Positions 901 through 42,227 of a stretch of DNA of 64,000 bases are shown here, one piece after another. Made by a program: the position numbers and the translations under genes. The notes under the pieces are model-generated. The model worked only from the letters and a program-made list of their open reading frames with translations. It was not told where the DNA came from and made no database searches. Origin of the DNA: Saprospiraceae bacterium (GTDB lineage Bacteria > Bacteroidota > Bacteroidia > Chitinophagales > Saprospiraceae); NCBI GenBank assembly GCA_021739645.1, contig JAIPBL010000012.1, positions 1-64,000 of the forward strand, read 5' to 3'. The stretch's first letter is position 1. Each line of letters begins with the position of its first letter.

Positions 901-3900
901 ATGTTTAATAAAAAAGAAAGAAAATTCAAATACCCAGGCGTGAAAGTCGCCATGGATGGAAACACTGCTGCCATCATGTGTGAGCGGGAATCGACGGATG
1001 CAGCGGGTGCCTATCCAATTACACCCTCCACCCAAATGGGGGAATATTGGGCGGAAGAAGCTGCCAAAGGTCACCTAAACATCTCTGACCGGCCGCTTAT
1101 TTTTATTGAACCAGAAGGGGAACACGCCGCTGCGGCAGTTACCGCCGGCTTGTCCATGACGGGCTTGCGTGCCGCCAATTTCTCCTCTGGACAGGGCATT
1201 GCCTACATGCATGAATCATTGTATGCTGCCGTTGGCAAACGTCTGACTTATGTGCTCAACATCGGCGCACGGGCAATGACCAAGTCCACCCTGAACGTAC
1301 ATGCCGGGCATGATGATTACCATGCGATAGATGACACTGGATTTTTCCAGCTCTTCGCTAAAAAAGCGCAGTACGTGGCGGATCTAAACATCATCGCTCA
1401 CAGAATTGCTGAATTGTCTTTGACCCCTGGGGCCATAGCCCAGGATGGATTTTTGACCACCCACTTGATAGAATCCCTGTTGCTCCCTGAGCGTGAATTG
1501 ATTAAAGAATTCTTGGGCCGCCCTGATGATATTATTGACACACCAACTGCTGCCCAGAGAATTATTTATGGCGACACTCGCCGTCGCATCCCAGAATTAT
1601 GGGACGTTGACAACCCAATGATGGCAGGTGTCGTTCAAAACCAAGATGCCTATATGCAGAGCGTTGCTTCGCAACGGCCCTATTTCTTTGACCATATAAA
1701 ATCGCTGACTGACCAGGCATTTGACGACTATTTTGAACTTACCGGACGCCAATATGCCAGGGTGATGACCTATTTGGCAGATGATGCCGACTACTTGATT
1801 GTTGGTCAAGGCAGTGTGATTTCGAGTGCTGAAGCGGTGGTGGATTATATCCGCAAAACCCGTGGCATCAAAGTAGGTGTGGTGGACATGGTCATGTTCC
1901 GGCCATTCCCCGATGACCTGATTGGGAGAATTTTGAAAGGTAAAAAAGGCGTGACCATTCTTGAAAGGCTGGACCAGCCATTGGCCACCGACCTCCCACT
2001 TGTGAGGGAAATTCGAGCGGTTTTGACCAAATGCATAGAAAATGGCTACCACAAGAAAGATGCGCCATACCCTGAACTCACAAGCTACAGTTCTTCCGAC
2101 CTTCCGGCGCTGTATTCTGGTTCATTTGGCATGGGAAGCCGTGACCTGCAGCCAGAAGGCATCATCGGCGCTATCGAGAACATGTTGCCCAATGGAAAGC
2201 ATAAAAAGCTATTCTATTTATCCATAGATTTCATCCGGGACGTCCCCTCTTCGCCCAAACAACGGGAATACCAAGAGACTATCCAGGAGGCTTATCCGCA
2301 TGTAAAAGAACTGGCGATACATGGGTCTGAAAACCCGAACCTAATGCCAGAAAAGGCCATCACGGTTCGTTTCCACTCCGTTGGTGGCTGGGGTGCGATT
2401 ACCACTGGCAAAAACCTCGCAATGACGCTTTACGATTTGCTGGGTTATGACATCAAGGCAAATCCAAAGTATGGTTCCGAGAAAAAAGGCCAACCAACAA
2501 CCTACTATTTGGCCGCAGCTCCAGAGCCAATTCGCATGAACTGCGAGTATTTCTTTGTGGACGTCGTGCTTTCCCCAGACCCCAATGTTTTCAAGCACAC
2601 CAACGCATTGGCGGGGCTAAAAAAAGGCGGCTGCTTCATCATCCAAAGTGAAAAAAGCAAGCCCGAAGAGGTATGGGCCGAAATTCCAAAGCCTTACCAA
2701 AAAGTCATTATTGATAACGAAATCCATATTTTCTACATCGACGGTTTCAAAATTGCACGAGAAGAAGCGACCGACCCAGAGCTGCAATTGAGAATGCAGG
2801 GCATTGCCTTCCAAGGCGCATTCTTTGCCGCCTCCCCGCTGATGGACAAAGCGGGTTTCACACAAGAAACACTGCTAAAAGCCATCGAGGACCAGTTGCA
2901 ACACAAATTCGGTGGCAAAGGCCAACGGGTCGTGGATGACAATATGCGGGTGGTAAAAAGGGGCTTTGACGAAGTCTTCGAAATCAAGAACAAGGTGCTG
3001 GACACCAGTATTTCCGCCAAAGCAAACGGCGAGATAATGCCCATCCCCACCATGTTGAGGAACATCCCACAAAGCGAGTCCAGCCTGAGCGACATCAACC
3101 GTTTTTGGGAGCAAACAGGTAACTTCTACCAGCGTGGCATGGGCAACGACAACATCACCGACCCGTTCATCGGGTTGAGCGTCATGCCTGCCGCTTCCTC
3201 GTTGTTCCGAGACATGACCGGCATCCGTTTTGAGCACCCAGAGTGGATTCCAAACAATTGCACTGCCTGCGGAAACTGCTACACCGCCTGCCCCGACACC
3301 GCAATTCCAGGCTTGGTGAGCGAACTGTCCGATGTTTTGGATACCGTGGTAAAACGAGTGCGGAAAAATCATGGCAAAGTTGAGCACCTCCCGAAAGCGG
3401 TGCGCCAAATGGAAAGCAAAGTCCGAGCGCTGCTCAATGAATCCAAAAATAAAGTAACAGTCAGCAGCCTCATCCATGAGGTGATTGACAAAACGATTCG
3501 TGAAAATGACGGTGAATTGGCACAGGAGCTGGGTTGGTTCCAAGCGGAGTTGGGTGATTTCAAATTTGCCCTAACCCGCCCGTACTATGACCTCCACGAA
3601 AAAGACAAACCCAACAGTGGTGGCTTGTTCAGCATAACCATCAACCCAATCACCTGCAAGGGCTGCATGGAATGTGTCGAAGTGTGTGATGACGATGCCT
3701 TGCGGCCAATCACCCAGACGGAGGATTCCGTCGCCCAGTTGAGGCAAGAATGGGACTTCTGGATGGACTTGCCGAATACGCCGAAGAAATTCAATCGCAT
3801 TGACGATTTGGAAGAGAAGATTGGGCCGCTCGAAACTATTTTACTCAACAAAGATGCCTACCTGAATTTTGCTAGCGGGGATGGCGCTTGCATGGGCTGT

Positions 3901-5808
3901 TCCGAGAAAACGGTTGTCCACCTTTTTGTGGCAACGGTAGAATCTTTGATGCAGCCACGTATCGAAAAACACGTGGCGCATTTGGAAGGACTCATTGAAA
4001 AACTAGAGAAGCACATCCAGCAAAAGCTCATTTCGACAGTCAATGTCAATGATGCTGAAATGATGGCCAAAATTATTTCAGAATCAAACAAGTCTGATTT
4101 AACAATGTCGAGCATTGCCAGCAAACTTGAATCCGCTTCGGGAAGCGAGCCGATTGACCAAGAATGGCTGCGAGATGTGACACAACTGCTGGCCAAATTG
4201 AAAAAACTGAAATGGAAATACGCCGACGGCACCACCGGAAAAGGCCGCTCCAGCATGGGCATGTGCAATTCCACGGGATGTACCTCCGTCTGGGGTAGTA
4301 CCTGGCCGTACAATCCGTATCCATTCCCATGGGCCAACCACCTGTTCCAGGATTCAACGTCCATGGCGATGGGGATTTTCGAAGGGCACATGGCAAAAAT
4401 GGCTGAAGGGTTCAAAGTCATCCGCAAGGCAGAATTGGAATTGAGCGGTAACTACAAGCCCAGCGAACACGATGAATTCCTTACCTATTTCACCTGGCAA
4501 CAATTCACCGATGAGGAATGGCTGCTTTGTCCTCCAGTGGTAGCGCTGGGCGGTGACGGCGCCATGTACGACATTGGGTTCCAGAACCTGTCGAGGATGA
4601 TGGCCTCCGGCAAACCTATCAAGGTCATCGTGGTGGACACGCAAGTTTACTCCAACACGGGCGGCCAAGCCTGTACCTCCGGTTTCATTGGCCAAGTTTC
4701 GGACATGGCCCAGTACGGCAAGGTTTGGAAAGGCAAGAGCGAGCCTCGAAAAGAGATTGGCCTGATTGCCATGGCGCACCGAAATACATACGTTTTGCAG
4801 GGCACTTTGGCCAATACCAGCCAGATGATTGAAGGGTTCATAGACGGCTTGATGACCAAGCGTCCTGCCCTTTTCAACCTCTACACCACCTGCCAACCAG
4901 AGCACGGCGTGGCCGACGACATGGGCGTGCATCAAGCGAAGCTGGCGATGGAATCCCGGGCCTACCCCATTTTCAAATACAACCCAGACAATGGGGTGAA
5001 AGCGGAAGATGCTTTTGACCTGAGCGGGAATCCGGCGATGGATAAAATTTGGCCGAACTACCAACTTAAGTACCTGGAAAACGGCAGGGAAAAATCGATG
5101 GAAGTCTCCATGACTTTTGCAGATTTCGCCCTGACGGAAGCTAGGTTCAGAAAGCAGTTCCGCAAAGTGCCACGTGATGCATGGAATGAAAACATGGTGA
5201 TTTTATCAGAATTTCTTGAAATGAGCGAAGCGGATAGGGAAGGCAAATTCCCATTTATCTGGGCTGTGGACAGGAAGCAACACCTCAGCCGGGTGATGGT
5301 CGCCAAACCCATCGTTGAATCCTGCGAGGAGAGGCGTGATTTCTGGATTATGCTACGTGCATTGGCCGGTGTCAAAACGGAGAAAGCTGAATCGGCGGTT
5401 GACATCGAAAGCAAAATCCGTGCGGAGGTAGTAGGTAAAATCGCCCAGGGGCTGATGAAATTGGCGGGTGGCAACGGCGAAGGACTCGCCAACTTAGCTA
5501 TCGGAGCAGATACCACAACAGCAGCTCCGACTGCTGGTGCAGCTGCCCCAAACGGTGAATACATGGCGCCTTGGTTGGAAACCGACGAGTGTACCTCCTG
5601 CGACGAATGCACCAAACTCAACTCGAATATTTTCGCCTACAACAATGACAAGAAAGCATTTATCAAAAATCCGGATGGCGGGCCTTATGAGGATTTGGTG
5701 AAGGCTGCCGAGAAATGCACGGCGAGGGTAATTCATCCGGGCCTGCCTGCTAACAGGACAATGAAGGATGCTGAGAAGTGGATCAAGCGGGGGGAGAAGT
5801 TTAACTAA
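901..5808 (+). CDS. nifJ: pyruvate:ferredoxin (flavodoxin) oxidoreductase, extended form
   Basis: Single-chain PFOR that oxidatively decarboxylates pyruvate (or another 2-oxoacid) to acyl-CoA and CO2 and reduces ferredoxin. The N-terminal half carries the TPP/pyrimidine-binding domain (GAYPITPSTQMGEYWAE) and the central gamma domain (RFHSVGGWGAITTGKNLA). Two 4Fe-4S motifs follow, at C787/790/793/797 and C919/922/925/929. The proximal cluster ligands are near C997/C1000 and C1127, and the TPP-Mg motif GGDGAMYDIGFQN lies near residue 1217. At 1635 aa it is far longer than the usual 1170-1230 aa. It has roughly 70-90 aa helical insertions between the two ferredoxin motifs and after C1000, and an additional C-terminal ferredoxin-like domain (C1564/1567/1570...C1606) behind an Ala/Thr-rich linker. 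It sits upstream of the Rnf genes, the expected acceptor of its reduced ferredoxin. Substrate is inferred from family. Confidence 0.95.
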   Translation: MFNKKERKFKYPGVKVAMDGNTAAIMCERESTDAAGAYPITPSTQMGEYWAEEAAKGHLNISDRPLIFIEPEGEHAAAAVTAGLSMTGLRAANFSSGQGIAYMHESLYAAVGKRLTYVLNIGARAMTKSTLNVHAGHDDYHAIDDTGFFQLFAKKAQYVADLNIIAHRIAELSLTPGAIAQDGFLTTHLIESLLLPERELIKEFLGRPDDIIDTPTAAQRIIYGDTRRRIPELWDVDNPMMAGVVQNQDAYMQSVASQRPYFFDHIKSLTDQAFDDYFELTGRQYARVMTYLADDADYLIVGQGSVISSAEAVVDYIRKTRGIKVGVVDMVMFRPFPDDLIGRILKGKKGVTILERLDQPLATDLPLVREIRAVLTKCIENGYHKKDAPYPELTSYSSSDLPALYSGSFGMGSRDLQPEGIIGAIENMLPNGKHKKLFYLSIDFIRDVPSSPKQREYQETIQEAYPHVKELAIHGSENPNLMPEKAITVRFHSVGGWGAITTGKNLAMTLYDLLGYDIKANPKYGSEKKGQPTTYYLAAAPEPIRMNCEYFFVDVVLSPDPNVFKHTNALAGLKKGGCFIIQSEKSKPEEVWAEIPKPYQKVIIDNEIHIFYIDGFKIAREEATDPELQLRMQGIAFQGAFFAASPLMDKAGFTQETLLKAIEDQLQHKFGGKGQRVVDDNMRVVKRGFDEVFEIKNKVLDTSISAKANGEIMPIPTMLRNIPQSESSLSDINRFWEQTGNFYQRGMGNDNITDPFIGLSVMPAASSLFRDMTGIRFEHPEWIPNNCTACGNCYTACPDTAIPGLVSELSDVLDTVVKRVRKNHGKVEHLPKAVRQMESKVRALLNESKNKVTVSSLIHEVIDKTIRENDGELAQELGWFQAELGDFKFALTRPYYDLHEKDKPNSGGLFSITINPITCKGCMECVEVCDDDALRPITQTEDSVAQLRQEWDFWMDLPNTPKKFNRIDDLEEKIGPLETILLNKDAYLNFASGDGACMGCSEKTVVHLFVATVESLMQPRIEKHVAHLEGLIEKLEKHIQQKLISTVNVNDAEMMAKIISESNKSDLTMSSIASKLESASGSEPIDQEWLRDVTQLLAKLKKLKWKYADGTTGKGRSSMGMCNSTGCTSVWGSTWPYNPYPFPWANHLFQDSTSMAMGIFEGHMAKMAEGFKVIRKAELELSGNYKPSEHDEFLTYFTWQQFTDEEWLLCPPVVALGGDGAMYDIGFQNLSRMMASGKPIKVIVVDTQVYSNTGGQACTSGFIGQVSDMAQYGKVWKGKSEPRKEIGLIAMAHRNTYVLQGTLANTSQMIEGFIDGLMTKRPALFNLYTTCQPEHGVADDMGVHQAKLAMESRAYPIFKYNPDNGVKAEDAFDLSGNPAMDKIWPNYQLKYLENGREKSMEVSMTFADFALTEARFRKQFRKVPRDAWNENMVILSEFLEMSEADREGKFPFIWAVDRKQHLSRVMVAKPIVESCEERRDFWIMLRALAGVKTEKAESAVDIESKIRAEVVGKIAQGLMKLAGGNGEGLANLAIGADTTTAAPTAGAAAPNGEYMAPWLETDECTSCDECTKLNSNIFAYNNDKKAFIKNPDGGPYEDLVKAAEKCTARVIHPGLPANRTMKDAEKWIKRGEKFN

Positions 5809-9629: not shown

Positions 9630-10210
9630 AAGAGGAATCACTTTGGTACATATTCATCAATGCAAGCCTAATCAACAATTTTGTGCTGGCTTATTTTCTG
9701 GGTATTTGCCCTTTTTTGGGGGTATCTGGCAAGATGGAAACCGCCACCAAAATGGGGGGGGCCGTGACCTTTGTGATGCTCATCAGTTCGATGTGCGCTT
9801 ACGGGCTTCATGCCTTGTTGACGGCGATAAACGCCCCATTTTTACAGTTGATAAGTTATATCGTGGTCATTGCCTCTACCGTTCAACTGGTGGAGATGTT
9901 CATCAAAAAAATGAGCCCGGCCTTGTTCCGGGCACTGGGAATTTTTCTTCCGTTAATCACTACCAACTGCGCCATACTTGGGTTGGCGCTTTTCCAAACC
10001 AACAAGGGCTATGGGTTTTTCGAGAGTTTCATTTACGCATTGGGAGCGGGTACCGGGTTCACTTTAGCATTGGTACTGATGGCTGGATTGCGTGAACAAC
10101 TCAATTTTGCGGAGGTGCCCAACGTGGTGAAAGGAACCGTATTGACACTTTTGATTGCAGGTATTCTGTCATTATCATTCATGGGCTTTGCTGGATTGGG
10201 GAGTCAGTGA
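9626..10210 (+). CDS. rnfA: Rnf complex subunit A (membrane)
   Basis: 194 aa integral membrane protein, RnfA/NqrE family. NNFVLAYFLGICPFLGVSGK near the N-terminus and ITTNCAILGLALF in the middle are family signatures; the Cys in each belongs to the intramembrane iron site. It is the last gene of the tightly overlapped run. A short spacer follows before the small Cys-rich membrane protein. Confidence 0.95.
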   Translation: MKEESLWYIFINASLINNFVLAYFLGICPFLGVSGKMETATKMGGAVTFVMLISSMCAYGLHALLTAINAPFLQLISYIVVIASTVQLVEMFIKKMSPALFRALGIFLPLITTNCAILGLALFQTNKGYGFFESFIYALGAGTGFTLALVLMAGLREQLNFAEVPNVVKGTVLTLLIAGILSLSFMGFAGLGSQ

Positions 10211-10263
10211 AATTGGGGAATTTGGGAATTGGGTTGGTACATCTGGTTTTAAAAAAATAGAAA

Positions 10264-10458
10264 ATGATAAACTCATTGCTCATCGGAATCGGCGGAATCA
10301 TTGGTCTCATCGCCTTGTGGTTCATCGTCCAGCAATTTTGGGGAAGCACCTTTTCTGACTACATGACGGATGAAGATGTCCTGGCAGGTCGGAGCAGCTG
10401 CGGAAATTGCGGCTGCACGACCGCCTGTAAAAATAAGAATGCGGAACATTTTAGTTAA
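10264..10458 (+). CDS. small single-span Cys-rich membrane protein, NqrM-like by context
   Basis: 64 aa: an N-terminal hydrophobic helix (residues 4-24), a short polar stretch, then a Cys cluster (SSCGNCGCTTAC, pattern CxxCxCxxxC) and a charged tail. The layout matches NqrM (DUF539), the small membrane protein with clustered cysteines needed to mature the intramembrane iron centre of Na+-NQR. The position, 53 bases after rnfA and inside the Rnf cluster, suggests an equivalent maturation role for the RnfA/RnfE iron site. Direct similarity to NqrM is weak by eye, so function is inferred from architecture and location. Confidence 0.75.
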   Translation: MINSLLIGIGGIIGLIALWFIVQQFWGSTFSDYMTDEDVLAGRSSCGNCGCTTACKNKNAEHFS

Positions 10459-10482
10459 TTGACAAACTGATTGAGTTTTTTC

Positions 10483-10581
10483 CTCCCGCAGATTTTGCAG
10501 ATTTACGCAGATAGTTACTTTATTTTTCCTTCGGAAAAATCTGCGAAATCTGCAGGAGAAACTTTGCGGCAAAGCCGCAAA
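10483..10581. repeat. REP-like palindromic repeat pair
   Basis: Arms CTCCCGCAGATTTTGCAGATT (10483-10503) and its near-complement at 10538-10558 match at 19 of 21 positions, with TTCCTTCGGAA in the loop. A second small hairpin TTTGCGGC-AAA-GCCGCAAA follows at 10563-10581. This style of CTGCGAAATCTGC palindrome is commonly dispersed in Bacteroidota genomes. It separates the Rnf membrane genes from the FNR gene and may stabilise or divide the transcript. Confidence 0.65.
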
Positions 10582-10651
10582 CATCAAAAACTCATTCTGT
10601 AAATCAAAAAATATTAGACTGAATTTAAAACACAAATAATAACCATTCAAT

Positions 10652-11509
10652 ATGGCACATTTAGCAGACTTCAGTACTGAAAACAGGTACCAGGCAATCG
10701 TCAAAAAAACGAACCGCCTAACACCAGCAAACACCGAAGAAATCCGGGAAATATTGCTGGAAGTCAACCAACCGAACTTTGAATGTAACGTTGACCAAAG
10801 TTTTGGTGTGTTGGTGAAAGCCACGGGGGAATTTGGCAACACCCTCCACCACCGTTTGTACAGCGTGGCCGACCTTCCCGAAAAGAAAAACGGAAAGCCA
10901 GTCATCACCATTTTGGTCAAAAGATGCTCCTACGTGGATGATTTCAACGGGGAATTGTACGACGGTGTGGCATCCAATTACCTGTGCGACAGGAAGGTGG
11001 GTGATGAAATAACCATCACCGGGCCCCATGCTTTGCCGTTCGTAGTGCCGGAGGATAAAAACTCGAACCTCATCCTGATTGGTATGGGAACGGGCATTGC
11101 TCCTTTCCGGGCTTTTGTAAAGCATATTTACAAAAACGTGAAGGACTGGAAAGGCAAAATCCGGCTGTTTTATGGCGCCCGCAGTGGATTGGAATTGCTT
11201 TACCTGAATGACAAAGATGGTGACTTGACCAGTTACTACGATGAAGCAACATTCGAGGCATTCCATGCTTTAAGCCCCCGCCCACACATGGCCGACCCCA
11301 TCGCATTGGACAGTGCTATCGAAGATCGAGCAGCCGAAATAATTGAAATGTTGGGTCAAACGAACACCCGAATTTACGTGGCCGGCTACGAGAAAATTCG
11401 AGACATGCTGGACAAAGCGTTCTCCAAAATATTGGGTTCAAAAGAGAAATGGGAAATCCGGAAAGCGGAATTGATCGCCGGTAAAAAATGGGTAGAGATT
11501 ATTTATTGA
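10652..11509 (+). CDS. ferredoxin-NADP(+) reductase
   Basis: 285 aa cytosolic flavoprotein of the plant-type FNR family, moving electrons between reduced ferredoxin and NADP+. The FAD-binding beta barrel carries RLYSVAD (RxYS motif, about residue 71). The NADP domain begins with LIGMGTGIAPFRAFV, continues with FYGARSG and IYVAGYEKIRDM, and ends in an aromatic terminus (WVEIIY) like other FNRs. Its location between rnfA and rnfB and downstream of PFOR suggests that ferredoxin reduced by pyruvate can be used either by Rnf or to make NADPH. The ATG at 10652 follows an A-rich leader. Confidence 0.88.
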   Translation: MAHLADFSTENRYQAIVKKTNRLTPANTEEIREILLEVNQPNFECNVDQSFGVLVKATGEFGNTLHHRLYSVADLPEKKNGKPVITILVKRCSYVDDFNGELYDGVASNYLCDRKVGDEITITGPHALPFVVPEDKNSNLILIGMGTGIAPFRAFVKHIYKNVKDWKGKIRLFYGARSGLELLYLNDKDGDLTSYYDEATFEAFHALSPRPHMADPIALDSAIEDRAAEIIEMLGQTNTRIYVAGYEKIRDMLDKAFSKILGSKEKWEIRKAELIAGKKWVEIIY

Positions 11510-31606: not shown

Positions 31607-34600
31607 TCACGCCGCCACCCGCCCATCATACCGCTTTCTGAAAAACTCAAAAAGCATCTCCGTTCTTTCATCAATATCACTTTCCACAAATGCGGGGTAA
31701 GGCAGACGCTCAAAGAGGCAATTATTTATCACCACACGCACCGCTGATTTCGTCTGCTCCTTTTCAAACCAGTTCACCACCCGAAACTCGTTTTCTTTCA
31801 GGCGCTCCAAAAGTTGTTTGGCGATTTCCTTTAGTTCGGCCTTTTCCTTGTCGCTCACTTTCTTGTCACGGCTCAACATGTCCAGAACGGCTAATTCTTC
31901 CTCGCTCACATCTTCCCGGACAGACCGTTTTTCCTCCTCGCTCAGGTCTCCGTAAAAGTTTATCAATTGGTCAAAAATCTCTTTTATCGCCCCGTATTCC
32001 TTGCCCGTGTTGTATTCGGCTATGATGCGTTGATAGCGTTCATAGTAGTCCACCCGGAAAGGGTTGTCCCTTAACATCTGGTTCAGCTTGTCGGCAATCT
32101 TGTCTTTCAGCGATTGCACGGCAACGGGTTGGTTGTCGCCCAATTTCAGAAACTCCCTTTCGATGCGCTCAAAGTCCAACCCGCTCAAATCAATCTTGTT
32201 TCCATGCCCTTCGACGGGGTCTAAGGCGATGTTCAGGCTTTCGATAGATTTGTCCACCACGTCCTGAACTTGCCGAACGATGGCGGAAATATCGCTTTCT
32301 TCCTCGTTCCGGTAGATGACGGCATAAATGGCGTTGATAGCGTCCCGCTGTGGTTGGAAGGCATAAATGGTCTTATCGGGAAACAGTGCCTTGAATTTCT
32401 TGAACACCTCCCTACCCAGCACCCCGAACTTGTTCCGGCTTTCATCGTTGAGGCAAACGGCGTTCACTCCTTCCTGTACGGCCTTTATTTTCCAAACCCC
32501 TTCGGCCTCGATGGCCTTGTCCAAATCGAAGTCCACATCGTCCCGCAAAAATCCAACGGTAGCTTCAATGGCCTCTTGCAGGTCTTCCACCAAATCCTCC
32601 AAGGGTTTTACAGGCACATCAGGTTCTCCTCCTCCTCCTCCGTCCACGTTCTTGTCGCCGCCAATGGCATAGACGGCCAATGCTTCCAAAAGGGCTTTGT
32701 AGGTCTCTATGTAGTCAACGATTAAGCCGTTGTTCTTCCATTCGTCATGCACCCGGTTTGCCCTTGCGATGGTCTGCATCAGGGTGTGAGATTTCATTGG
32801 CTTGTCTATGTACAAGGTGGAAAGGCTTTTCACGTCGAAGCCCGTCAGCCACATGGCGCAAACGATGACGAAGCGGAAAGGGTTTTCATCTTCCTTGAAT
32901 TCCTTTTCGAGGTCTCTTTCGTTCATCTTGAGGCGGTGGGGTTCGATGTCCAAACCCCAAGCCGTGAACCTTTGAATCTCATTCTGTTCATGGCTCACCA
33001 CAACCCCCATTTCTGTTTCTTCCGACCATTGCAGCGCCTTGGCTTGGGTCAATGCTTCCTGTTCGTCTGTCAGCTTTTCGATTTCTTTTTTGCGCCTTTC
33101 GAGGTACTTGGTTTGCTCCTCACTGATATAGTCGAACATGCGAACGGCTGTCAGCTTGTCCAGTGCGACGAACATGGCCTTTCCCTTGTAGCCCCGGTTG
33201 TTGAAATGTTCCACCACGTCCCTGGCGATGGAGCGCAACCGTTTTTCAGCCGTCAAAATCGGGTAGTCTTTGGCGAATAGCCGCTTTAGCTTTTCCGTTT
33301 GGTCTTCGTCCAGTTCGGCGGCTTCTATGGCCGTCCTGATTTCGTCATTGATTTTCGGGTTGTCGAGGCGCAATTTTTCGCCCCGGTTCTCATAGTACAA
33401 CGGCACGGTCGCCCCGTCTTCGATACTGCGTTTGAAGTCGTAAACGGAAACATAATCGCCGAAAATGCGCCGTGTGAGTTCGTCATCCTTGAAAAGCGGC
33501 GTACCTGTGAAGCCGATGAAAGAGGCGTTGGGCAAAGCCTTTCGCATGTTCAATGCTAACGTGCCGCCCTGTGTCCGGTGGGCTTCATCACTGATGACAA
33601 TGATGTTTTCCCGCTCCGTCACCGTCCCTTCAAAATTGAACTTGTGAATCAGGCTGAAAACATATTTTTCATCAGTCCCTAAAATCTCCTTCAAATCCTT
33701 GCCGCTTGCTGCCTTGGCTTTCTTGTTCGTCACCGCTCCCACCCCGGCAAACGTGCCATAAATCTGGGTGTTGAGTTCCACCCTGTCCGTCACCAAAACG
33801 AAGGTGTAAGCCCCGCCAAACTGCCTTTGTATTTTCTGGCAAAGGAACACCATCGAATAGGACTTCCCGCTGCCCTGGGTATGCCAGAACACGCCCAAGC
33901 GTTGCGCCTCCTCCTTGGTGATTTCACCGTTTTTTCGACGTTTCAACTGGTTCTTGAAATGGTCAACGGCCTTGTTCACGCCAATGAATTGGTGGTTTCT
34001 GGCAATGAGTTTTACCAGCTTGTCGCCCACGTCGAACAGGATGAAATTCTCAAAAATGTCCAGCAAATGCGCCTTCTCACAAACCCCTTTCAGGATGGTG
34101 TCGAGGCTCACCACCCCTTCCTCGTTTTCCCGGATGCGCTTCCATTCGTGGAAGTGTTCAAACTTGGAGGTGAGCGAACCGATTTTACTATCAAAGCCGT
34201 TGCTCAAAATGATAACGGCGTTGCAATGAAACAGGCGGGGAATGGTGTCTTTGTAATCGGCGAGGTTGGTTTCAAAAGCCACTTTCAGCTTGCGGTGGTG
34301 GGCTTTCAGCTCGATGAAAACCAAGGGGATGCCATTCACGAAGCCCACAATGTCGGGGCGCTTGCGGCGCTTGGATTTGCCCTCCATCCACATTTGCTGC
34401 ACGGCAAGGAAGTCGTTCTTTTCGGGTTCATCGAAATTGAAAACCCGGATGCGCTTGCCTTCCACCCGTTCGCCCTTTTCATTGATGAAATCAACCGGGA
34501 TGCCTTCTTTCAGTTGCTTGTACTTTTCGTGGTTGAGGTCTGGCAGCGTCCTGGATGCGTTGTCGCTGGCTATCTCCTCCAATGCGGCAAGGTAGGCCGC

Positions 34601-34804
34601 TTCGGGCAGGTCGGGGTTTAGCGCCCGCACCGCTGCCATGAAACGCTCCCGCAAAACCACGTCCGCCTCCGATGCCCTGCCCAAGGTTCCGCCCGCTCCG
34701 AAGCGCTCGCCTTGATACACATTGGTGGTTTGCCAGTCCATTTCCTTGAAAATGGCAATGGCGGTCTTTTCGATGAAATTGTCTTCGGAGTAGGTGTAGG
34801 ACAT
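31607..34804 (-). CDS. hsdR: type I restriction enzyme, R subunit
   Basis: 1065 aa DNA translocase and endonuclease subunit. The N-terminal PD-(D/E)xK nuclease is visible as RPDIVGFVNGIPLVFIELKA. Superfamily 2 helicase motifs follow: Walker A HTQGSGKSYSM, DEAH-like IVISDEAHRTQGG, motif III FIGFTGTP and motif VI region QTIARANRV. A long C-terminal helical region contacts HsdM. It is the last gene of the island operon, 28 bases after the preceding unknown gene, instead of being directly next to hsdM/hsdS. Confidence 0.96.
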   Translation of the reverse strand: MSYTYSEDNFIEKTAIAIFKEMDWQTTNVYQGERFGAGGTLGRASEADVVLRERFMAAVRALNPDLPEAAYLAALEEIASDNASRTLPDLNHEKYKQLKEGIPVDFINEKGERVEGKRIRVFNFDEPEKNDFLAVQQMWMEGKSKRRKRPDIVGFVNGIPLVFIELKAHHRKLKVAFETNLADYKDTIPRLFHCNAVIILSNGFDSKIGSLTSKFEHFHEWKRIRENEEGVVSLDTILKGVCEKAHLLDIFENFILFDVGDKLVKLIARNHQFIGVNKAVDHFKNQLKRRKNGEITKEEAQRLGVFWHTQGSGKSYSMVFLCQKIQRQFGGAYTFVLVTDRVELNTQIYGTFAGVGAVTNKKAKAASGKDLKEILGTDEKYVFSLIHKFNFEGTVTERENIIVISDEAHRTQGGTLALNMRKALPNASFIGFTGTPLFKDDELTRRIFGDYVSVYDFKRSIEDGATVPLYYENRGEKLRLDNPKINDEIRTAIEAAELDEDQTEKLKRLFAKDYPILTAEKRLRSIARDVVEHFNNRGYKGKAMFVALDKLTAVRMFDYISEEQTKYLERRKKEIEKLTDEQEALTQAKALQWSEETEMGVVVSHEQNEIQRFTAWGLDIEPHRLKMNERDLEKEFKEDENPFRFVIVCAMWLTGFDVKSLSTLYIDKPMKSHTLMQTIARANRVHDEWKNNGLIVDYIETYKALLEALAVYAIGGDKNVDGGGGGEPDVPVKPLEDLVEDLQEAIEATVGFLRDDVDFDLDKAIEAEGVWKIKAVQEGVNAVCLNDESRNKFGVLGREVFKKFKALFPDKTIYAFQPQRDAINAIYAVIYRNEEESDISAIVRQVQDVVDKSIESLNIALDPVEGHGNKIDLSGLDFERIEREFLKLGDNQPVAVQSLKDKIADKLNQMLRDNPFRVDYYERYQRIIAEYNTGKEYGAIKEIFDQLINFYGDLSEEEKRSVREDVSEEELAVLDMLSRDKKVSDKEKAELKEIAKQLLERLKENEFRVVNWFEKEQTKSAVRVVINNCLFERLPYPAFVESDIDERTEMLFEFFRKRYDGRVAA

Positions 34805-36937: not shown

Positions 36938-37303
36938 TCAAACCTGAAAGGTTAAGTCCTGAAAGTCTTTTTTGCCGCTTGGAACGCAAATTATCTCCCC
37001 ACCCAACGCCACCTCCAACTCAGCAATCATCCGCAAACTGAGAATGTGATTCCATCTTAGCCATTCGCTGATTTCTGATTCAGTCTTTCCCATCTTGTTG
37101 GCAAGGTCTTTTTCAGAAAAGCCCCTTTCCTCCATCAACTCATAAATCCGGTCTATGATGTCCCCGTACTTCCTGACAAAGACACGGGTATGCTCCGGCA
37201 CTTGTTCCAAAACCTCCTGAAAAAGTTTGTTTCGCATGGCTTTCATCTTTTGCAGTGGCAAACGATTTATGGCTCCGAAAAATTCACTTTCAGCAATACT
37301 CAC
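36938..37303 (-). CDS. helix-turn-helix (XRE-like) protein
   Basis: 121 aa. An N-terminal helical region (about 1-55) is followed by a helix-turn-helix domain: IDRIYELMEERGFSEKDLA, NKMGKTESEISEWLRWNHI, then LSLRMIAELEVALGGEI. It looks like an XRE-type repressor or antitoxin-like DNA-binding protein. Its ATG overlaps the hsdS stop by 4 bases, so it is translationally coupled to hsdS and could control the island. A spacer of 183 bases follows before the TIGR04255 gene and may hold an internal promoter. Confidence 0.82.
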   Translation of the reverse strand: MSIAESEFFGAINRLPLQKMKAMRNKLFQEVLEQVPEHTRVFVRKYGDIIDRIYELMEERGFSEKDLANKMGKTESEISEWLRWNHILSLRMIAELEVALGGEIICVPSGKKDFQDLTFQV

Positions 37304-38481
37304 ACCTCCAAAACCCCACCCATCAACCTCGGCAACAACAAATCCCGTCCCGCTTTCAGCCGTTGGTTTTGCTTGGTAAAGTTCAAAACTTGGCTCAAAA
37401 TCGGTTTGGCAACCTCTGCAAATAGTTCTGAAATTTCCTTGGTCGGCTTGGTATAAAACACGGCGTCCAATTCGGTACGCTTAATGTGTTTCATGGTTGC
37501 ACCTGTTGTTCTGTTCCTGAAATCCTCCATTGAGTTTTTCAGGGCATAGTAAAAATGGAACTTGTTTGTTCCTTTCAACGGATGTACCAAAAAAAGATGC
37601 TGATTCAATAAAGCCTCACCACTTGCCCACCAATAAACATCCAAGTCCGCCGACCAACTGAACAAAATCGAATTGTCTCCAAACTTGTATTTTTCGGGCA
37701 CATCACTTCCTTGGTATCTTGGTGTATCGTTCCCAATTCCCGCTTTCAATTCTTTGATTTTTATAATTGGCAAACCGTCCTTTGAATGATGGTGAGGTTT
37801 GAAAGCAAAGCCATTGATAAATTCAGCAACCGCCGAAAATGGCACTTTCTTCCACCCCTCCGGCAACCCATCCACCACCTTCACCTCCTTCCAACCCGGA
37901 AACCGGAACTTCACGAACCATTCCCGGTACAGGTGTTGCGCCGCTTCTTCCAATAGCCGGATGCGCTTCAAATTGTTCTCTATCCCGTCATCGTAAGCGG
38001 AGAGGATGGAGGCGATTTTTTGTTGGGTTTTGTATGGAGGAGCGGGCATTTTCATTGTGAGCAATTTCTCCATGCTCAAATTTTCCCTTGCCGTTCCTTG
38101 CGAAATCCGATGCAATTCGATTCTTTTCGTGTCTAAAAAGTATTTAACAAACTTGGTATCTGATTTTCCTTCCTTCCCAATGAATCCAATTACGCTGTCT
38201 GGGAAACAAGCATCAAATCCTAAAATTGCAGTTGCCGCCGTATTTGCACCAACTATTGAAATACAAAGTGTCCCCGCTTCCCACAATTTGCTTTGAGAAA
38301 GCCCAAAATCATTATAGGTTTTTGAATATTCATTTATGTAAAAATTGGCATTTTGGATTTCCCCGGTTTGGATTAATGGATAAATACCACCATAAAGCCT
38401 TTCATCATTTCGTGGCCTATGTCGGGACTTCCCCCTTGAAATGTACCCCAATTCATCAAGTTGTTTTTCTTCCCATTTCAT
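37300..38481 (-). CDS. hsdS: type I restriction enzyme, specificity subunit S
   Basis: 393 aa DNA-recognition subunit with two target recognition domains separated by conserved helices. TRD1 covers about residues 1-155 (LDELGYISRGKSRHRPRNDE, KMPAPPYKTQQKIASILSAY as the central helix), TRD2 about 205-345 (AVAEFINGFAFKPHHHSKDG), then the second helix (KPTKEISELFAEVAKPILSQ). Its ATG overlaps a TGA that once ended hsdM (see the 72-bp tail copy at 38482-38553). The recognition sequence cannot be read from the protein. Confidence 0.94.
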   Translation of the reverse strand: MKWEEKQLDELGYISRGKSRHRPRNDERLYGGIYPLIQTGEIQNANFYINEYSKTYNDFGLSQSKLWEAGTLCISIVGANTAATAILGFDACFPDSVIGFIGKEGKSDTKFVKYFLDTKRIELHRISQGTARENLSMEKLLTMKMPAPPYKTQQKIASILSAYDDGIENNLKRIRLLEEAAQHLYREWFVKFRFPGWKEVKVVDGLPEGWKKVPFSAVAEFINGFAFKPHHHSKDGLPIIKIKELKAGIGNDTPRYQGSDVPEKYKFGDNSILFSWSADLDVYWWASGEALLNQHLFLVHPLKGTNKFHFYYALKNSMEDFRNRTTGATMKHIKRTELDAVFYTKPTKEISELFAEVAKPILSQVLNFTKQNQRLKAGRDLLLPRLMGGVLEV

Positions 38482-38553
38482 AGCCCCAACTCATTTAAGT
38501 GTTCCTGAATCGTTCCCGCCAAAACCGCCGCTTCCCGGTCGAGGTCGGCGAGT
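38482..38553 (-). pseudogene. duplicate hsdM 3' end (orphan tail, 24 codons)
   Basis: 72 bases that match the present hsdM 3' end at 39795-39866 with 8 mismatches and no gaps. Translated, it reads LADLDREAAVLAGTIQEHLN then ELGL and a TGA that overlaps the hsdS ATG; the intact HsdM has G and T at two positions. This looks like the original hsdM terminus, cut off from its gene when the DUF4143 ATPase gene was inserted. Confidence 0.85.
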
Positions 38554-38591
38554 GGTGTGTGCGAATATGGTTGTGATTTTTTCATGCTCAT

Positions 38592-39740
38592 TTATTGGAT
38601 GCCGACGAAAGCATCGAAATTTTCTTGGTCAATCAAGGTTGTTTCGCTGTCGGGATAGGCTTCCAGGAAAGACTTGGGGAAACGGGCGGATTTTTTCGCC
38701 TGCCATTTGAACTCGAAGGCATGGAGCCTGCCACCGGCGTCTTCCACGTAGTCAATTTCCTGCTGCGTCGTGGTGCGCCAGAAGTAGGTATTGCAGTCGT
38801 GACCCGTGTAGGCGTTTCGCTTCATGCGCTCGGCAAGCAGGAAGTTTTCCCACAGCGCCCCGGTGTCGTTACGCAGGGCGAGCGGCGAGAAGTTTTTGAG
38901 GATGGCGTTGCGGATGCCGTTGTCGAAGAAATAGATTTTCCTGCCTTTTTTGATTTCGTTGCGGGCATTGCGGCTCAGTGAGGGCAGCCGGAACAGCACG
39001 AAGGACTGCTCCAGCAAGTCCACGTATTTTTCCACGGTGACGGGGTCGGCGCCGATAAGCTGGGCGACTTCGTTGTAGATGACCTCGCTGCCCAACTGGA
39101 GCGCCAGCGCTTGCAGGAGCTTCACCAGCAGGGTGGGCTTCTTGATTTGGTCGAGGGTGAGCAGGTCTTTGTACATCAGCCCGTCGCTCAGGTCGTTGAG
39201 GGTTTTTAGCGCCTGTGGGGGTTCGTTTTGTGCCACTTCGGGGTAGTAGCCGTAGAGCATCCGGTGTTCGAGCAGCGAACGCTCGGCGAGGTAGCCATGC
39301 TGTCCGCACATTTCCCCAAACGAAAGCGGGTAAAGCGAAAACTCGAACTTTCTGCCGGTAAGGCTTTCCTTGGTCTGGGCGGCAAGGTCGAGCGAGGAGG
39401 AGCCGGTGACAAAAAGCTGCACATGCGGCAGGTGGTCGGTGATGAGCTTGAGCATCAGCCCGGCGTTGGTGAAGCGTTGCGCTTCGTCCACCACCACCAC
39501 CTCGTTTTGGCCGATGAGGGTTTGTAGGCGTGCGAGTGAAACATTGTCGAGCAGAGAACGGGCTTCGGGGTCGTCGCCCGTCAGCCAGAGGGTTTTGCGG
39601 TCTAGGCTTTGGGTGATTTTGCGGACGAGGGTGGTCTTGCCCACTTGCCGGGGACCAGTGACGATGATGGCTTTACCCTTGCCGAGCCATTGCCTAATGT
39701 TTTGTTCTTGTATGCGCTGTACCATACCTTTTGATGGCAA
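38592..39740 (-). CDS. DUF4143-type AAA ATPase
   Basis: 382 aa. N-terminal AAA domain with Walker A ITGPRQVGKTTLVRK-type sequence (IVTGPRQVGKTTL), Walker B VVVVDEAQRF and sensor VTGSSSLDLA; central winged-helix part; C-terminal DUF4143 with a PD-(D/E)xK-like pattern (QQEIDYVEDAGGRLHAFEFKW). These ATPases are widespread, highly mobile between genomes and of unclear function. A second ATG at 39725 (MVQRIQEQN) is possible as start. The gene is noticeably GC-rich and is flanked by the two hsdM tail copies. Confidence 0.9.
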   Translation of the reverse strand: MPSKGMVQRIQEQNIRQWLGKGKAIIVTGPRQVGKTTLVRKITQSLDRKTLWLTGDDPEARSLLDNVSLARLQTLIGQNEVVVVDEAQRFTNAGLMLKLITDHLPHVQLFVTGSSSLDLAAQTKESLTGRKFEFSLYPLSFGEMCGQHGYLAERSLLEHRMLYGYYPEVAQNEPPQALKTLNDLSDGLMYKDLLTLDQIKKPTLLVKLLQALALQLGSEVIYNEVAQLIGADPVTVEKYVDLLEQSFVLFRLPSLSRNARNEIKKGRKIYFFDNGIRNAILKNFSPLALRNDTGALWENFLLAERMKRNAYTGHDCNTYFWRTTTQQEIDYVEDAGGRLHAFEFKWQAKKSARFPKSFLEAYPDSETTLIDQENFDAFVGIQ

Positions 39741-39790
39741 TTTTATTGATTTTTTCGATTTAAATCCAAAAAATAGGTCTTTATTTTCGA

Positions 39791-41737
39791 TTACAGCCCT
39801 AATTCCGTTAAATGCCCCTGAATCGTTCCCGCCAAAACCGCCGCTTCCCGGTCAAGGTCGGCGAGTTCCAGTTTGATTTCCCCCATTCTTTCCTCAAAGT
39901 CGAAGCCGTCATCTTCTTGCACCGCTACGCCCACATAGCGCCCGGCGGTCAGACTGTAATCGTTGGCGGCTATTTCGGCCTGTGTCACCACCCGGCACAA
40001 GCCCGGCACGTCCTGGTATTTGCCTTCGGGAAAGCGTTCGCTCAGCCATTTCAATTCCTTCTCAAAGTACAGGGCATGGTCGGCGGCTTCTTGGAAGGTT
40101 TTCACCCGGCTTTCCGTTTCGATGAGGTAGCGTATCAGGTTTTCTCGGCGGGTTTTGTCCTTTTTCAGTTCGTCGCTTTGCAGGCTGGTCTTGGCTTCGG
40201 CGGCGAGTTCCTTGTGGGCATGGTTCAGGTGCTTTTTCAGGCGCTTGAGGTCCGTTGCCAAACCTGACAGGTCTTCGAGACCTGTCAGGTTTTCGAGACC
40301 TGTCAGGTTTTCAGTCTTCAAGTCCAGCAACAGTTTCTCGGCTGCGAGGCTGCGGTTTTCCACCATGCCAGACCATGCCTGTTTTGCGGCGGCTAAAGCC
40401 GCCTGTACTTCGCTTTGGTAGCTTTCTATGGCCGAATTAAAGGGGTCATCGTTGCCCCGGTAAAGCCCCACAACGGCCTTGATATTGCGCAAATGTTCCG
40501 GCGTGAAATCGTGGATGCTGGACGAAACTTTACGGTAAACGTCCCGAAGGTCGAGCATCAGGGTTTTGTCGCTGCGTTCGGGGTCGGCCTCCTTCGCCCG
40601 GTCATAAAACCAAAGGGTACAGGGCAAGGAACGGGTGTAAAAGAACTTCGTGCCGATGCTTACCATCACGTCCACCGCCCCCGTTTTCACCAACTGTTCC
40701 CGGATGTCCTTTTCCGTATGCCCGGCGTCCGAAGCCGACGAAGCCATGACGAAGCCCGCCCGCCCGTTGGGGTTCAGGTAGGCATAAAAATATTGAATCC
40801 AGAGGTAGTTGGCGTTGTCAGATTTGGGCAGGCCAAAAGGCAGGCGTGGGTCGTTCTTTACGCTGTCCCTTGCCTTGTCCACCCCGTCCACGTTGAAAGG
40901 CGGGTTGGCCATGACGAAATCGCAGCGCCCCGCCATGCTGTGTTGGTCTTCGTAAAAAGTGTTGCCCTGTAAAATGCTCGCTTCCAAGCCGTGAACGGCC
41001 ACGTTCATTTTCGCCAAACGGGTGTTGGTGTCCGCTTTTTCCTGTCCGTAAAACGAGACCTTCGAGGCGGGGTTTTCGCCCTCCTCCTCGATGAAATGCC
41101 CCGTCTGAACGAACATTCCCGCCGAACCGCAAGCGGGGTCGAAAACGATGCCGTGGTCGGGTTCTATGATGGCCACAATGGTATTGACCAGGGAAGGCGG
41201 GGTGAAAAACTCGCCGCCCTCTTGCGCCCCGCTCTTGGCAAATTCGTTGAGGAAATATTCGTAAATCCTGCCAAATACATCGCCCGGCATACGGTCGAGG
41301 GTTTCATCGTTGAAAATCCTGAGCAGGCGTTGCAACAGGTCTTTTTCAAAGGCTTGGTAGTCTTTCGGCAACACGCCCAAAAGGGCTTCGTAGTCGCTTT
41401 CTATCAGGCGCATAGCCTCGTTGATTTCCTCGCCGATGTCCTTGCCTTCGGGCAGGTTCACGAGGTAATCCCAACGGGCATTTTCTTGCAGGTAGATGGC
41501 CTTGGCTTCCTGAAAATCGTCCTTGGTGACTGCCCGCCGCCCCCGTTGAGGATGCACTGGCAGCTTTTCCTCCATCATCACCTTTGCATCGTTGAAACGG
41601 CGAAAAGCATGGCGAAGGAACAACAACCCCAAGACGGGGAAGGAGTATTCGGTGGCGGTGAGTTTGGAGTTCGCCCGGAGTTGGTCGGCGGCCTGCCAGA
41701 GGCGGGTTTCGAGTTCTTTGAGTTGGTTTGCTGTCAT
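39791..41737 (-). CDS. hsdM: type I restriction enzyme, modification subunit M
   Basis: 648 aa N6-adenine methyltransferase of the type I complex. HsdM_N helical domain (ELETRLWQAADQLRANSKLT), SAM-binding motif I DPACGSAGMFVQTG near residue 210, and catalytic motif IV NPPFNVDG. The start at 41737 (MTANQLKELE) is chosen over an earlier in-frame ATG that would run into the spacer next to the tmRNA. An in-frame palindromic repeat near residues 476-492 inserts the residues ENLTGLENLTGLEDLSGL. The last 72 bases are duplicated next to hsdS. Confidence 0.96.
   Translation of the reverse strand: MTANQLKELETRLWQAADQLRANSKLTATEYSFPVLGLLFLRHAFRRFNDAKVMMEEKLPVHPQRGRRAVTKDDFQEAKAIYLQENARWDYLVNLPEGKDIGEEINEAMRLIESDYEALLGVLPKDYQAFEKDLLQRLLRIFNDETLDRMPGDVFGRIYEYFLNEFAKSGAQEGGEFFTPPSLVNTIVAIIEPDHGIVFDPACGSAGMFVQTGHFIEEEGENPASKVSFYGQEKADTNTRLAKMNVAVHGLEASILQGNTFYEDQHSMAGRCDFVMANPPFNVDGVDKARDSVKNDPRLPFGLPKSDNANYLWIQYFYAYLNPNGRAGFVMASSASDAGHTEKDIREQLVKTGAVDVMVSIGTKFFYTRSLPCTLWFYDRAKEADPERSDKTLMLDLRDVYRKVSSSIHDFTPEHLRNIKAVVGLYRGNDDPFNSAIESYQSEVQAALAAAKQAWSGMVENRSLAAEKLLLDLKTENLTGLENLTGLEDLSGLATDLKRLKKHLNHAHKELAAEAKTSLQSDELKKDKTRRENLIRYLIETESRVKTFQEAADHALYFEKELKWLSERFPEGKYQDVPGLCRVVTQAEIAANDYSLTAGRYVGVAVQEDDGFDFEERMGEIKLELADLDREAAVLAGTIQGHLTELGL
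40261..40309. repeat. palindromic 18-bp repeat inside hsdM
   Basis: AACCTGACAGGTCT-TCG-AGACCTGTCAGGTT is a perfect hairpin (40261-40291), and the unit TTCGAGACCTGTCAGGTT occurs twice in tandem (40274-40291, 40292-40309). The length is a multiple of three, so HsdM stays in frame and gains a six-residue repeat. It resembles dispersed Bacteroidota palindromes rather than normal coding sequence. Confidence 0.8.
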
Positions 41738-41834: not shown

Positions 41835-42227
41835 TGGTGGAGACGCCGGGAGTTGAACCCGGGTCCAGCGAAAGCACCCATAGGCCTTCTACATGCTTAT
41901 TTTCTGATTAAGTTTTCGAGTGCAATGTAGGCTCAGAAACGAAGCCGCTTTACACCTTATCCCCCATCCTGACAGCAAGCTGCCAGGATTCACCTTTTGG
42001 CCGAGGCACTCCGCAAGGCTATCCCGAAGTTGGTTGATACGCGGCACGCTGTGTATCGGAAGTCAAGCGTACGGCATAATGGCATTCTAATTCCTAGAAT
42101 TAGGCCGCCATGGCATACTGATAGTTGCCATTTGAATTGTTGAATGTCATTTTTTACGGAGTGACCACTCATGCTCCGGCATGCTTACCTACCGGTTATT
42201 CTTCCCTGTCGATTCCGGTACGTCCCC
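41835..42227 (-). ncRNA. ssrA: transfer-messenger RNA
   Basis: 393-nt tmRNA for rescue of stalled ribosomes. The 5' end GGGGACG pairs with CGTCTCC before an encoded 3' ACCA (one G-U). The 5' segment CCGGAATCGACAGGG and the T arm GGGTTCAACTCCC are typical. The tag reading frame ends at 42100-42102 with TAA and most likely encodes GNYQYAMAA from a GGC resume codon at 42127-42129. The exact resume codon is inferred from the usual tag length. The type I restriction operon begins downstream of its 3' end. Confidence 0.93.

Follow-up and report, generated by a model that had tools for sequence, protein, structure and literature searches.

How does a gene come to stand between two genes that overlap, and why does the end of the upstream gene then occur twice? 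The question is raised by a type I restriction-modification (R-M) locus on the minus strand of a 64,000-nucleotide (nt) stretch of Saprospiraceae bacterium DNA (contig JAIPBL010000012.1, positions 1 to 64,000; hereafter the window), where an ATPase gene of the PDC-S01/DUF4143 family separates hsdM from hsdS. Comparison with relatives shows a gain at the hsdM end, a duplication of that end, a native copy lying beside hsdS, a replaced one on hsdM, and both genes open. That the ATPase gene was gained in the hsdM end by an insertion that duplicated this end, leaving the native copy by hsdS and a replacement on hsdM, is in our judgement very probable. The junction comprises the following features.

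39791..41731, minus strand: hsdM, type I DNA methyltransferase subunit (N6_Mtase and HsdM_N by Pfam; PADLOC MTase_I, E 2e-232)
39795..39866, minus strand: tail copy joined to hsdM, its first 48 nt near-identical to the hsdS-side copy
39791-39817, minus strand: replacement end within the hsdM-joined copy, the last 24 nt plus the TAA stop, diverged in the comparison of copies
39741..39790, minus strand: 50-bp AT-rich spacer 5' of the ATPase gene (GC 0.20), with the near-palindrome GGATTTAAATC
38592..39740, minus strand: inserted gene, AAA_14 ATPase plus DUF4143 (PD-(D/E)XK-type) protein of 382 aa, PDC-S01 (Pfam; PADLOC)
38478..38591, minus strand: 37-codon open reading frame (ORF), MSMKKSQPYSHTP followed by 24 HsdM-tail residues, with its ATG after the ATPase TAA and its TGA overlapping the hsdS ATG
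38482..38553, minus strand: native hsdM 3' end, hsdS-side (relative L013 agrees at all four fixed left/right differences)
37300..38481, minus strand: hsdS, type I specificity subunit (Pfam Methylase_S; PADLOC Specificity_I)

The first-pass annotation had claimed an ungapped match between the 72 bases at 38482-38553 and those at 39795-39866. They were identical at 64 of 72 positions, and local alignment of the flanks scored 52, whereas none of 100 shuffles exceeded 13.5 (row L005, the window's locus). As the annotation had read them, both blocks encode the HsdM C-terminus, the 24 residues reading LADLDREAAVLAGTIQGHLTELGL in the copy joined to hsdM and LADLDREAAVLAGTIQEHLNELGL in the one next to hsdS, and the hsdS-side copy ends in a TGA that overlaps the hsdS ATG (GGGCTATGAAATGG). 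This second copy forms the 3' part of the 37-codon ORF, whose ATG abuts the ATPase stop (TAAATG). The mismatches were unevenly spread. In a slightly shifted block of 75 nt, counted from base CTCGCC and including the stop codons (72 nt without them), one fell in the first 48 nt and nine in the last 27; over the 72 nt from CTCGCC the two parts had 1/48 and 8/24 differences (p = 4e-4; best-split permutation, p = 0.002).

The ancestral state of the junction was sought in relatives. An uncultured Bacteroidetes contig (L013), with an HsdM 80% identical to that of the window, had no ATPase gene: its hsdM tail (...TIQEHLNELGI) ran into a TGA overlapping the hsdS ATG, an empty site that bears out the reading of the sequence beside hsdS as the ancestral hsdM-hsdS junction. 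An HsdM search over 328 genomes of the window's family gave 30 loci, of which the 10 nearest to the window's own were inspected at the junction. An hsdS-like ORF (recognised by eye) directly adjoined in seven of them, with an overlap of 4 nt in L350, L351, L352, L353, L355 and L356 and of 1 nt in L357; two (L349, L354) were cut or broken ahead of the junction. The remaining one, in genome G755 (L348, fetched longer as L377; HsdM 86% identical), was occupied, in the order hsdM, TAA, an ATPase gene of 382 aa, a 35-codon ORF with the tail copy, and hsdS. Its hsdS had a different first part from that of the window and was cut at 138 codons, and an integrase-core (rve) ORF lay nearby. The window and L377 paired in a 22-row HsdM tree, with L013 as sister (100/100). 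The comparison of junctions with and without the ATPase gene that the annotation had proposed therefore yielded one empty and one occupied relative, and the contrary case it had named, an ATPase gene accompanied by unrelated sequence in place of the 72-bp copy, was not encountered, as L377 keeps the copy. An assembly artefact is unlikely, because the same arrangement is present in two genomes.

The two occupied loci also indicate which copy is the original. At four positions (59, 63, 66 and 74 of 75), both hsdM-joined ends differed from both hsdS-side copies, the hsdM-joined bases being C, A, A and A, and all four positions fell within the final 27 nt (4/27, compared to 0/48 in the first part; Fisher p = 0.014). 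The L013 hsdM end sided with the hsdS-side copy at 4/4, which identifies that copy as the original hsdM end; hsdM itself received a different one. A native end displaced downstream and a substitute end completing the host gene are features of a gene-end-restoring mobile ORF of the fungal type, and the window locus shows both. Delivery of the replacement end by the insert is favoured over a quick change once the hsdM end had been freed from its overlap with hsdS.

On these grounds, a PDC-S01/DUF4143 gene would have been gained within the last hsdM codons in an ancestor common to the window and G755, by an insertion through which some 48-75 bp of the hsdM 3' end would have become duplicated. Next to hsdS, the native end would have remained, its TGA still overlapping the hsdS ATG, and the hsdM frame would have been completed by a slightly different end, brought by the insert or arising soon after; both overlapping genes would have remained intact because one end was kept beside hsdS and the other completed hsdM. 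The retention of the hsdS-side copy may reflect a dependence of hsdS translation on the stop codon ahead of it, as in EcoKI, whose hsdM-hsdS overlap is given as translationally coupled (PMC3510504). In the first 48 nt, the left and right copies differed at 8/48 positions in L377, where hsdS is broken, and at 1/48 in the window, where it is intact, a single comparison that fits a possible role of this stretch in hsdS expression. The DNA could have been joined by the gene's own product, in a homing-like manner, or by one-sided homologous plus illegitimate recombination.

How often such copies accompany a gap between hsdM and hsdS was surveyed in 70 type I loci, of which 66 were counted (L021, L095, L112 and L137, whose hsdM ends were broken or unsuitable, were set aside). 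hsdS adjoined in 38, including L013, which was assigned to this group by hand, its hsdS start having escaped the hsdS finder; in 24 the gap exceeded 100 nt, and in four no hsdS was found. A tail copy stood at the hsdS start in 4/24 gapped loci, with scores of 110 in the window, 61 in L133, 51 in L125 and 42 in L014, against a null of 144 windows (95%, 32; 99%, 38.1; maximum, 45); judged by score alone, L014 does not rise above what the null reaches, and scores of 32-33 occur in a few of the other 20. An independent motif conserved in all type I loci, which the annotation had named as a second contrary case, is ruled out by the presence of the copy in only 4/24 gapped loci. A tail copy as the inevitable cost of any insertion at this junction is likewise ruled out, 20/24 gapped loci being without it.

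In L125, L133 and L014, the insert between hsdM and hsdS was a single GxxExxY-type gene (Pfam PDDEXK_3 in L125 and L133, where it was tested; recognised by eye in L014, at 10000-10700, with a broken frame), and the hsdM-end copy at the hsdS start measured, by eye, about 27-29 nt. Looser cases were L138, in which a 23-nt copy of the hsdM end follows a BRO-family gene, and L140, one of the 20 loci without a copy at the hsdS start, in which a 135-nt hsdM-tail copy lies elsewhere in the gap, further from hsdS. Two more of these 20, L107 and L123, gave scores of 56 and 64 for their own tails at other places in the gap, where other tails reached no more than 51 and 56.

Two side observations concern these junctions. 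The inserts of L014, L125 and L133 seem, by eye, to start with a GTCTGAAYCAYGATT-like sequence and to finish with its reverse complement, and their ends resemble a small inverted-repeat element (repeat ends by eye). In L101, a 76-codon ORF after hsdS (3787-4018) ends in a diverged hsdM-tail copy, and an hsdS-like gene (by eye) lies about 1.7 kb beyond it.

Other DUF4143 genes were then scanned for direct repeats by comparing 450-bp flanks, with a score of 22 as the pass mark. In a first set of 97 loci (L008 without hit, 95 scored), 12 passed; re-scoring with full flanks gave 11/93, counted as 9/91 after removal of L005 (the window's copy) and L143 (the same locus as L070). L058 has a repeat but a short flank and was left uncounted. 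In a second set of 29 loci, two of them skipped, 5/27 passed, or 4/26 with the related pair L279/L281 counted once. Flanking direct repeats thus occurred at 13/117 DUF4143 loci, compared to 4/174 controls (p = 0.004), the latter made up of 2/146 ORFs from R-M loci and 2/28 Fic genes. Further controls gave 0/27 for mnmE and 0/85 for HsdM (not added to the 174, as its loci overlap the 146-ORF control), and PDDEXK_3 genes had flanking repeats at 8/29 loci, by eye mostly noncoding. An extra set of 20 loci, several of them the same loci re-fetched, was excluded; in it L206 and L213 (both of the G028:C10 cluster) passed, L210 was a short-flank artefact, the flank of L214 was short, L216 gave no hit and L211 reached a score of 16.

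Five of the 13 repeats were copies of host gene ends (L149, L160 and L286; L167 and L061 by eye), one (L182) was the remnant of another ATPase end, and seven looked noncoding or operator-like (L056, L070, L165, L195, L263, L279/L281, L287; L263, L279/L281 and L287 were examined as alignments only). The search proposed by the first-pass annotation, for other DUF4143 genes flanked by partial copies of the upstream gene's 3' end, thus turned up copies of a neighbour's end at these five loci, two of them by eye. L160 repeats the layout of the window, with 19 codons of the upstream mnmE 3' end after the ATPase gene. In L149, the duplication covers 73 bp (72 identical) of a pseudouridine synthase gene at its 5' end; at five other loci of this synthase gene in the same family (L223-L227), no ATPase gene was seen by eye just upstream. 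L286 has 53 codons of the 5' end of a flavin adenine dinucleotide (FAD) oxidoreductase gene before the ATPase gene and the intact gene after it. In L167, the copy is the apparent 3' end of a helix-turn-helix (HTH)-like gene on the opposite strand (by eye, frame broken), and in L061 it may, by eye, be the 5' end of a glycosyltransferase gene, although neighbouring paralogues could also account for the repeat. In L182 (G390:C11), the apparent last ~20 codons of another DUF4143 ATPase lie upstream of an intact one, about -197 to -120 from its start, as if one insertion had replaced another.

Among the control matches, L114 and L303 were hsdS repeats (L303 by eye), L111 was unclear, and L313 had a Fic gene between the 3' end of a low-molecular-weight phosphatase gene (near 1113-1171) and a 58-bp copy of it (near 1966-2024). 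In L250 (G423:C177), HigB toxin and HTH genes lie between mnmE and a second, diverged mnmE 3' end of 77 codons. Gene-end duplication is not special to DUF4143 genes, as PDDEXK_3, Fic and HigB genes show it too, and because L250 and L313 carry such copies, the mode of entry is common to several kinds of accessory gene.

The inserted gene itself is a clear member of the family, with AAA_14 (E 1e-29) carrying Walker motifs, DUF4143 (E 6e-40) and PADLOC PDC-S01 (E 4e-157). PDC-S01 is described as an ATPase fused to a PD-(D/E)XK domain (PMC12988326). In an alignment of 79 proteins (that of the window and 78 fetched ones passing a length and no-stop filter), the Walker A/B residues were conserved, and E298, D330 and K345 of the nuclease-like domain occurred in 79/79 rows and E343 in 97%, the residue assignment being made by eye. 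Single-sequence structure prediction was poor (predicted local distance difference test, pLDDT, 42.5) and was not used; the PD-(D/E)XK fold is a putative one, and the sequence had no match among solved structures at E 0.01. Between the window and L377, the gene differs at 132/1149 nt, 103 in synonymous and 29 in nonsynonymous codons; it is under selection against amino-acid change, and this ratio indicates that the gene is kept by selection. The annotation had called it GC-rich with its own start and stop. The latter holds (ORF 38592-39740), and the former does so relative to hsdS (0.566 vs 0.431) but not to hsdM (0.553), so GC content is no sign of foreignness relative to hsdM.

Upstream, the 50-bp spacer (39741..39790) can be aligned with L377 and is mostly kept. 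Palindromes with arms of at least 7 occurred within 100 nt 5' of the gene in 33% of 113 ATPase regions, whereas the 111 regions downstream had them in 9% of cases and shuffled sequences in 10%; a GATTnAATC-type motif occurred in 21/113 upstream and 6/111 downstream regions. These palindromes suggest a self-regulated promoter with a putative operator, and the spacer of the window is probably such a promoter/operator.

The window's genome has 10 DUF4143 matches, for which eight loci were fetched. When relatives of HsdM, HsdS and HsdR were sought at 146 ATPase loci, within flanks of ~1-5 kb, hsdM and hsdS adjoined the gene only in the window's locus (L005), and L265 had an hsdM-like start nearby. 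Viral contigs held no relative of the ATPase, with one protein as query and hence for close relatives only; relatives occurred in 18/50,697 phage records and in 484/72,556 plasmid records, all of the latter below 60% identity, and four plasmid loci (L218-L221) had no flanking repeat. No virus or plasmid carrier of the gene was found in these viral contigs, phage and plasmid records.

Several points weigh against a gain by end-duplicating insertion. The branch joining the window and L377 is not strongly supported (85/74), and L013 could represent a later loss of the ATPase gene, because recombination between the copies would recreate the empty site. The replacement end is only 24-27 nt long, which leaves few fixed differences (four), and some of these could stem from constraint having relaxed once the insertion was in place. 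The nearest ATPase relatives in 395 genomes, at just 55% identity, offer no candidate donor. The insert contains no integrase or transposase gene by ORF listing and Pfam, and inspection by eye found no terminal inverted repeat at its ends. A tail copy is not compulsory, since 20/24 gapped loci had no tail-like sequence above the 99% null at the hsdS start, and 104/117 other PDC-S01 loci had no flanking repeat at the threshold.

How the DNA was joined divides the remaining explanations. There is roughly an even chance that the ATPase gene was ordinary cargo, gained passively when incoming DNA with a foreign hsdM end and the ATPase gene recombined through homology in hsdM on one side and an illegitimate join on the other; the duplicated end would then be seen because only joints sparing both overlapping genes survived. 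The mosaic of the two copies agrees with a diverged donor, and the variety of other cargo with gene-end copies favours this route, namely PDDEXK_3 genes at hsdM-hsdS (L125 and L133; L014 broken, by eye), HigB/HTH in L250 and Fic in L313. The excess of flanking repeats at DUF4143 genes over controls (13/117 vs 4/174, p = 0.004) speaks against purely passive entry and favours some activity of the family.

It is possible, though on the unlikely side, that the gene is self-mobile, its ATPase and PD-(D/E)XK protein cutting gene ends and copying the gene in with a substitute end in a homing-like fashion. The intact ATPase and nuclease-like residues, that same excess of repeats, the copied ends of four to five unrelated host genes, and the nuclease-superfamily membership of the PDDEXK_3 genes with the same hsdM-hsdS pattern would all agree with such a protein, as would the analogy with mobile ORFs of fungal mitochondria (PMC3630166). 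However, the junctions inspected share, by eye, no common target motif or element end, the repeats vary in length from 23 to 164 bp, and Fic and HigB genes, which are not such nucleases, show the same pattern.

An exchange of hsdS, in which the hsdS-side copy arrived with a replaced hsdS that used hsdM 3' ends as upstream homology, is improbable. It would account for the differing target-recognition parts of hsdS in the window, L013 and L377, for a right copy that is near-unchanged over its first 48 nt in the window and differs at 8/48 positions in L377, and for L101, where hsdS is followed by an hsdM-tail copy and, at some distance, by an hsdS-like gene. Yet landing downstream of the ATPase gene needs a pre-existing tail copy, and the short ORFs of the window and L377 can be aligned over their N-terminal part although the hsdS genes differ.

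The short ORF before hsdS has a 35-codon counterpart in L377 that ends in the tail copy, with frame, ATG and stop/start overlap all kept. The two differ at 22 positions, 2 in synonymous and 20 in nonsynonymous codons, so a conserved peptide is unsupported. That it encodes a functional peptide, such as an HsdM tail helix supplied separately, rather than being a by-product is very improbable: the features kept in both genomes and the open frames with ATG that, by eye, likewise lead into the tail copy ahead of hsdS in L125, L133 and L014 are outweighed by those nonsynonymous differences, which change 15/35 residues.

Integrative islands restore the 3' end of their target gene, as at tRNA genes and mnmE, and the window locus resembles them in its duplicated end, restored target and displaced native end. 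It differs in being a single-gene insert of ~1.3 kb without a recombinase: the ATPase gene, with AAA and DUF4143 as its Pfam matches, is the sole sizeable minus-strand gene of the insert, and the tyrosine or serine recombinase of a site-specific integrative element is missing. The likeness to integrative elements drawn by the first-pass annotation hence holds for the outcome, a rebuilt hsdM terminus, but not for a demonstrated mechanism, as no recombinase or att-type route was found.

The closest precedent is provided by fungal mitochondrial mobile ORFs, described as replacing gene C-termini in Allomyces atp6 and in Glomus atp6, atp9, cox2 and nad3 (PMC3630166). There too, the insert brings a diverged end that completes the host gene, and the native end lies downstream and resembles that of close relatives. 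Those ORFs are, however, LAGLIDADG or GIY-YIG endonuclease genes of mitochondria, whereas the window carries a bacterial AAA ATPase with a PD-(D/E)XK-like domain and putative mobility. The PDDEXK_3 insertions (L125 and L133; L014 by eye) share the single gene and the hsdM tail copy running into the hsdS start, but have shorter copies (~27-29 nt) and apparent terminal inverted repeats (by eye).

The remaining features of the R-M locus, which runs hsdM, ATPase, hsdS, HTH gene, three more ORFs and hsdR, are as follows.

36938..37303, minus strand: HTH protein (PADLOC PDC-M64C/B)
31607..34804, minus strand: hsdR, type I restriction subunit (Pfam and PADLOC)

Of the three ORFs between the HTH gene and hsdR, one matched TIGR04255 and two had no match. 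The hsdM ORF from its first ATG would begin at 41881. Within hsdM (window positions 40260-40311), there are about three in-frame copies of a ACCTGTCAGGTTTTCGAG-like unit (NLTGLENLTGLEDLSGL). As a AAGACCTGTCAGGTTT palindrome akin to this unit sits in the repeat flanking the ATPase gene of L167, the unit may be a dispersed repeat that has invaded coding sequence.

PDC-S01 is a phage-defence candidate found through guilt-by-embedding (Payne et al. 2024, as cited in PMC12988326) and is ranked fourth by frequency among prokaryotic defence systems; most such candidates of the core defensome are said to await experimental validation (PMC12988326). The window's gene is of the same protein family and is likewise embedded in an R-M locus. 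In that literature, embedding is taken as a sign of defence, and duplication of gene ends is unmentioned in the portions available (PMC12988326); nor was any description of it for DUF4143 or PDC-S01 genes found in the literature, mostly at the level of titles and abstracts. Tentatively, and with considerable doubt, the DUF4143/PDC-S01 ATPase-nucleases could be a large family of solitary homing-like genes in bacteria and archaea that enter at gene ends and restore them with a duplicated or substitute end, their frequent embedding in defence loci reflecting mobility and not, or not only, defence. The locus offers a testable case of gene entry between overlapping, probably translation-coupled genes with neither broken. 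If such genes do enter operons by self-repairing insertion, embedding alone would be no proof of a defence function. As the pattern recurs at other genes, PDC-S01, a very common 'defence' gene, may in part be a moving gene.

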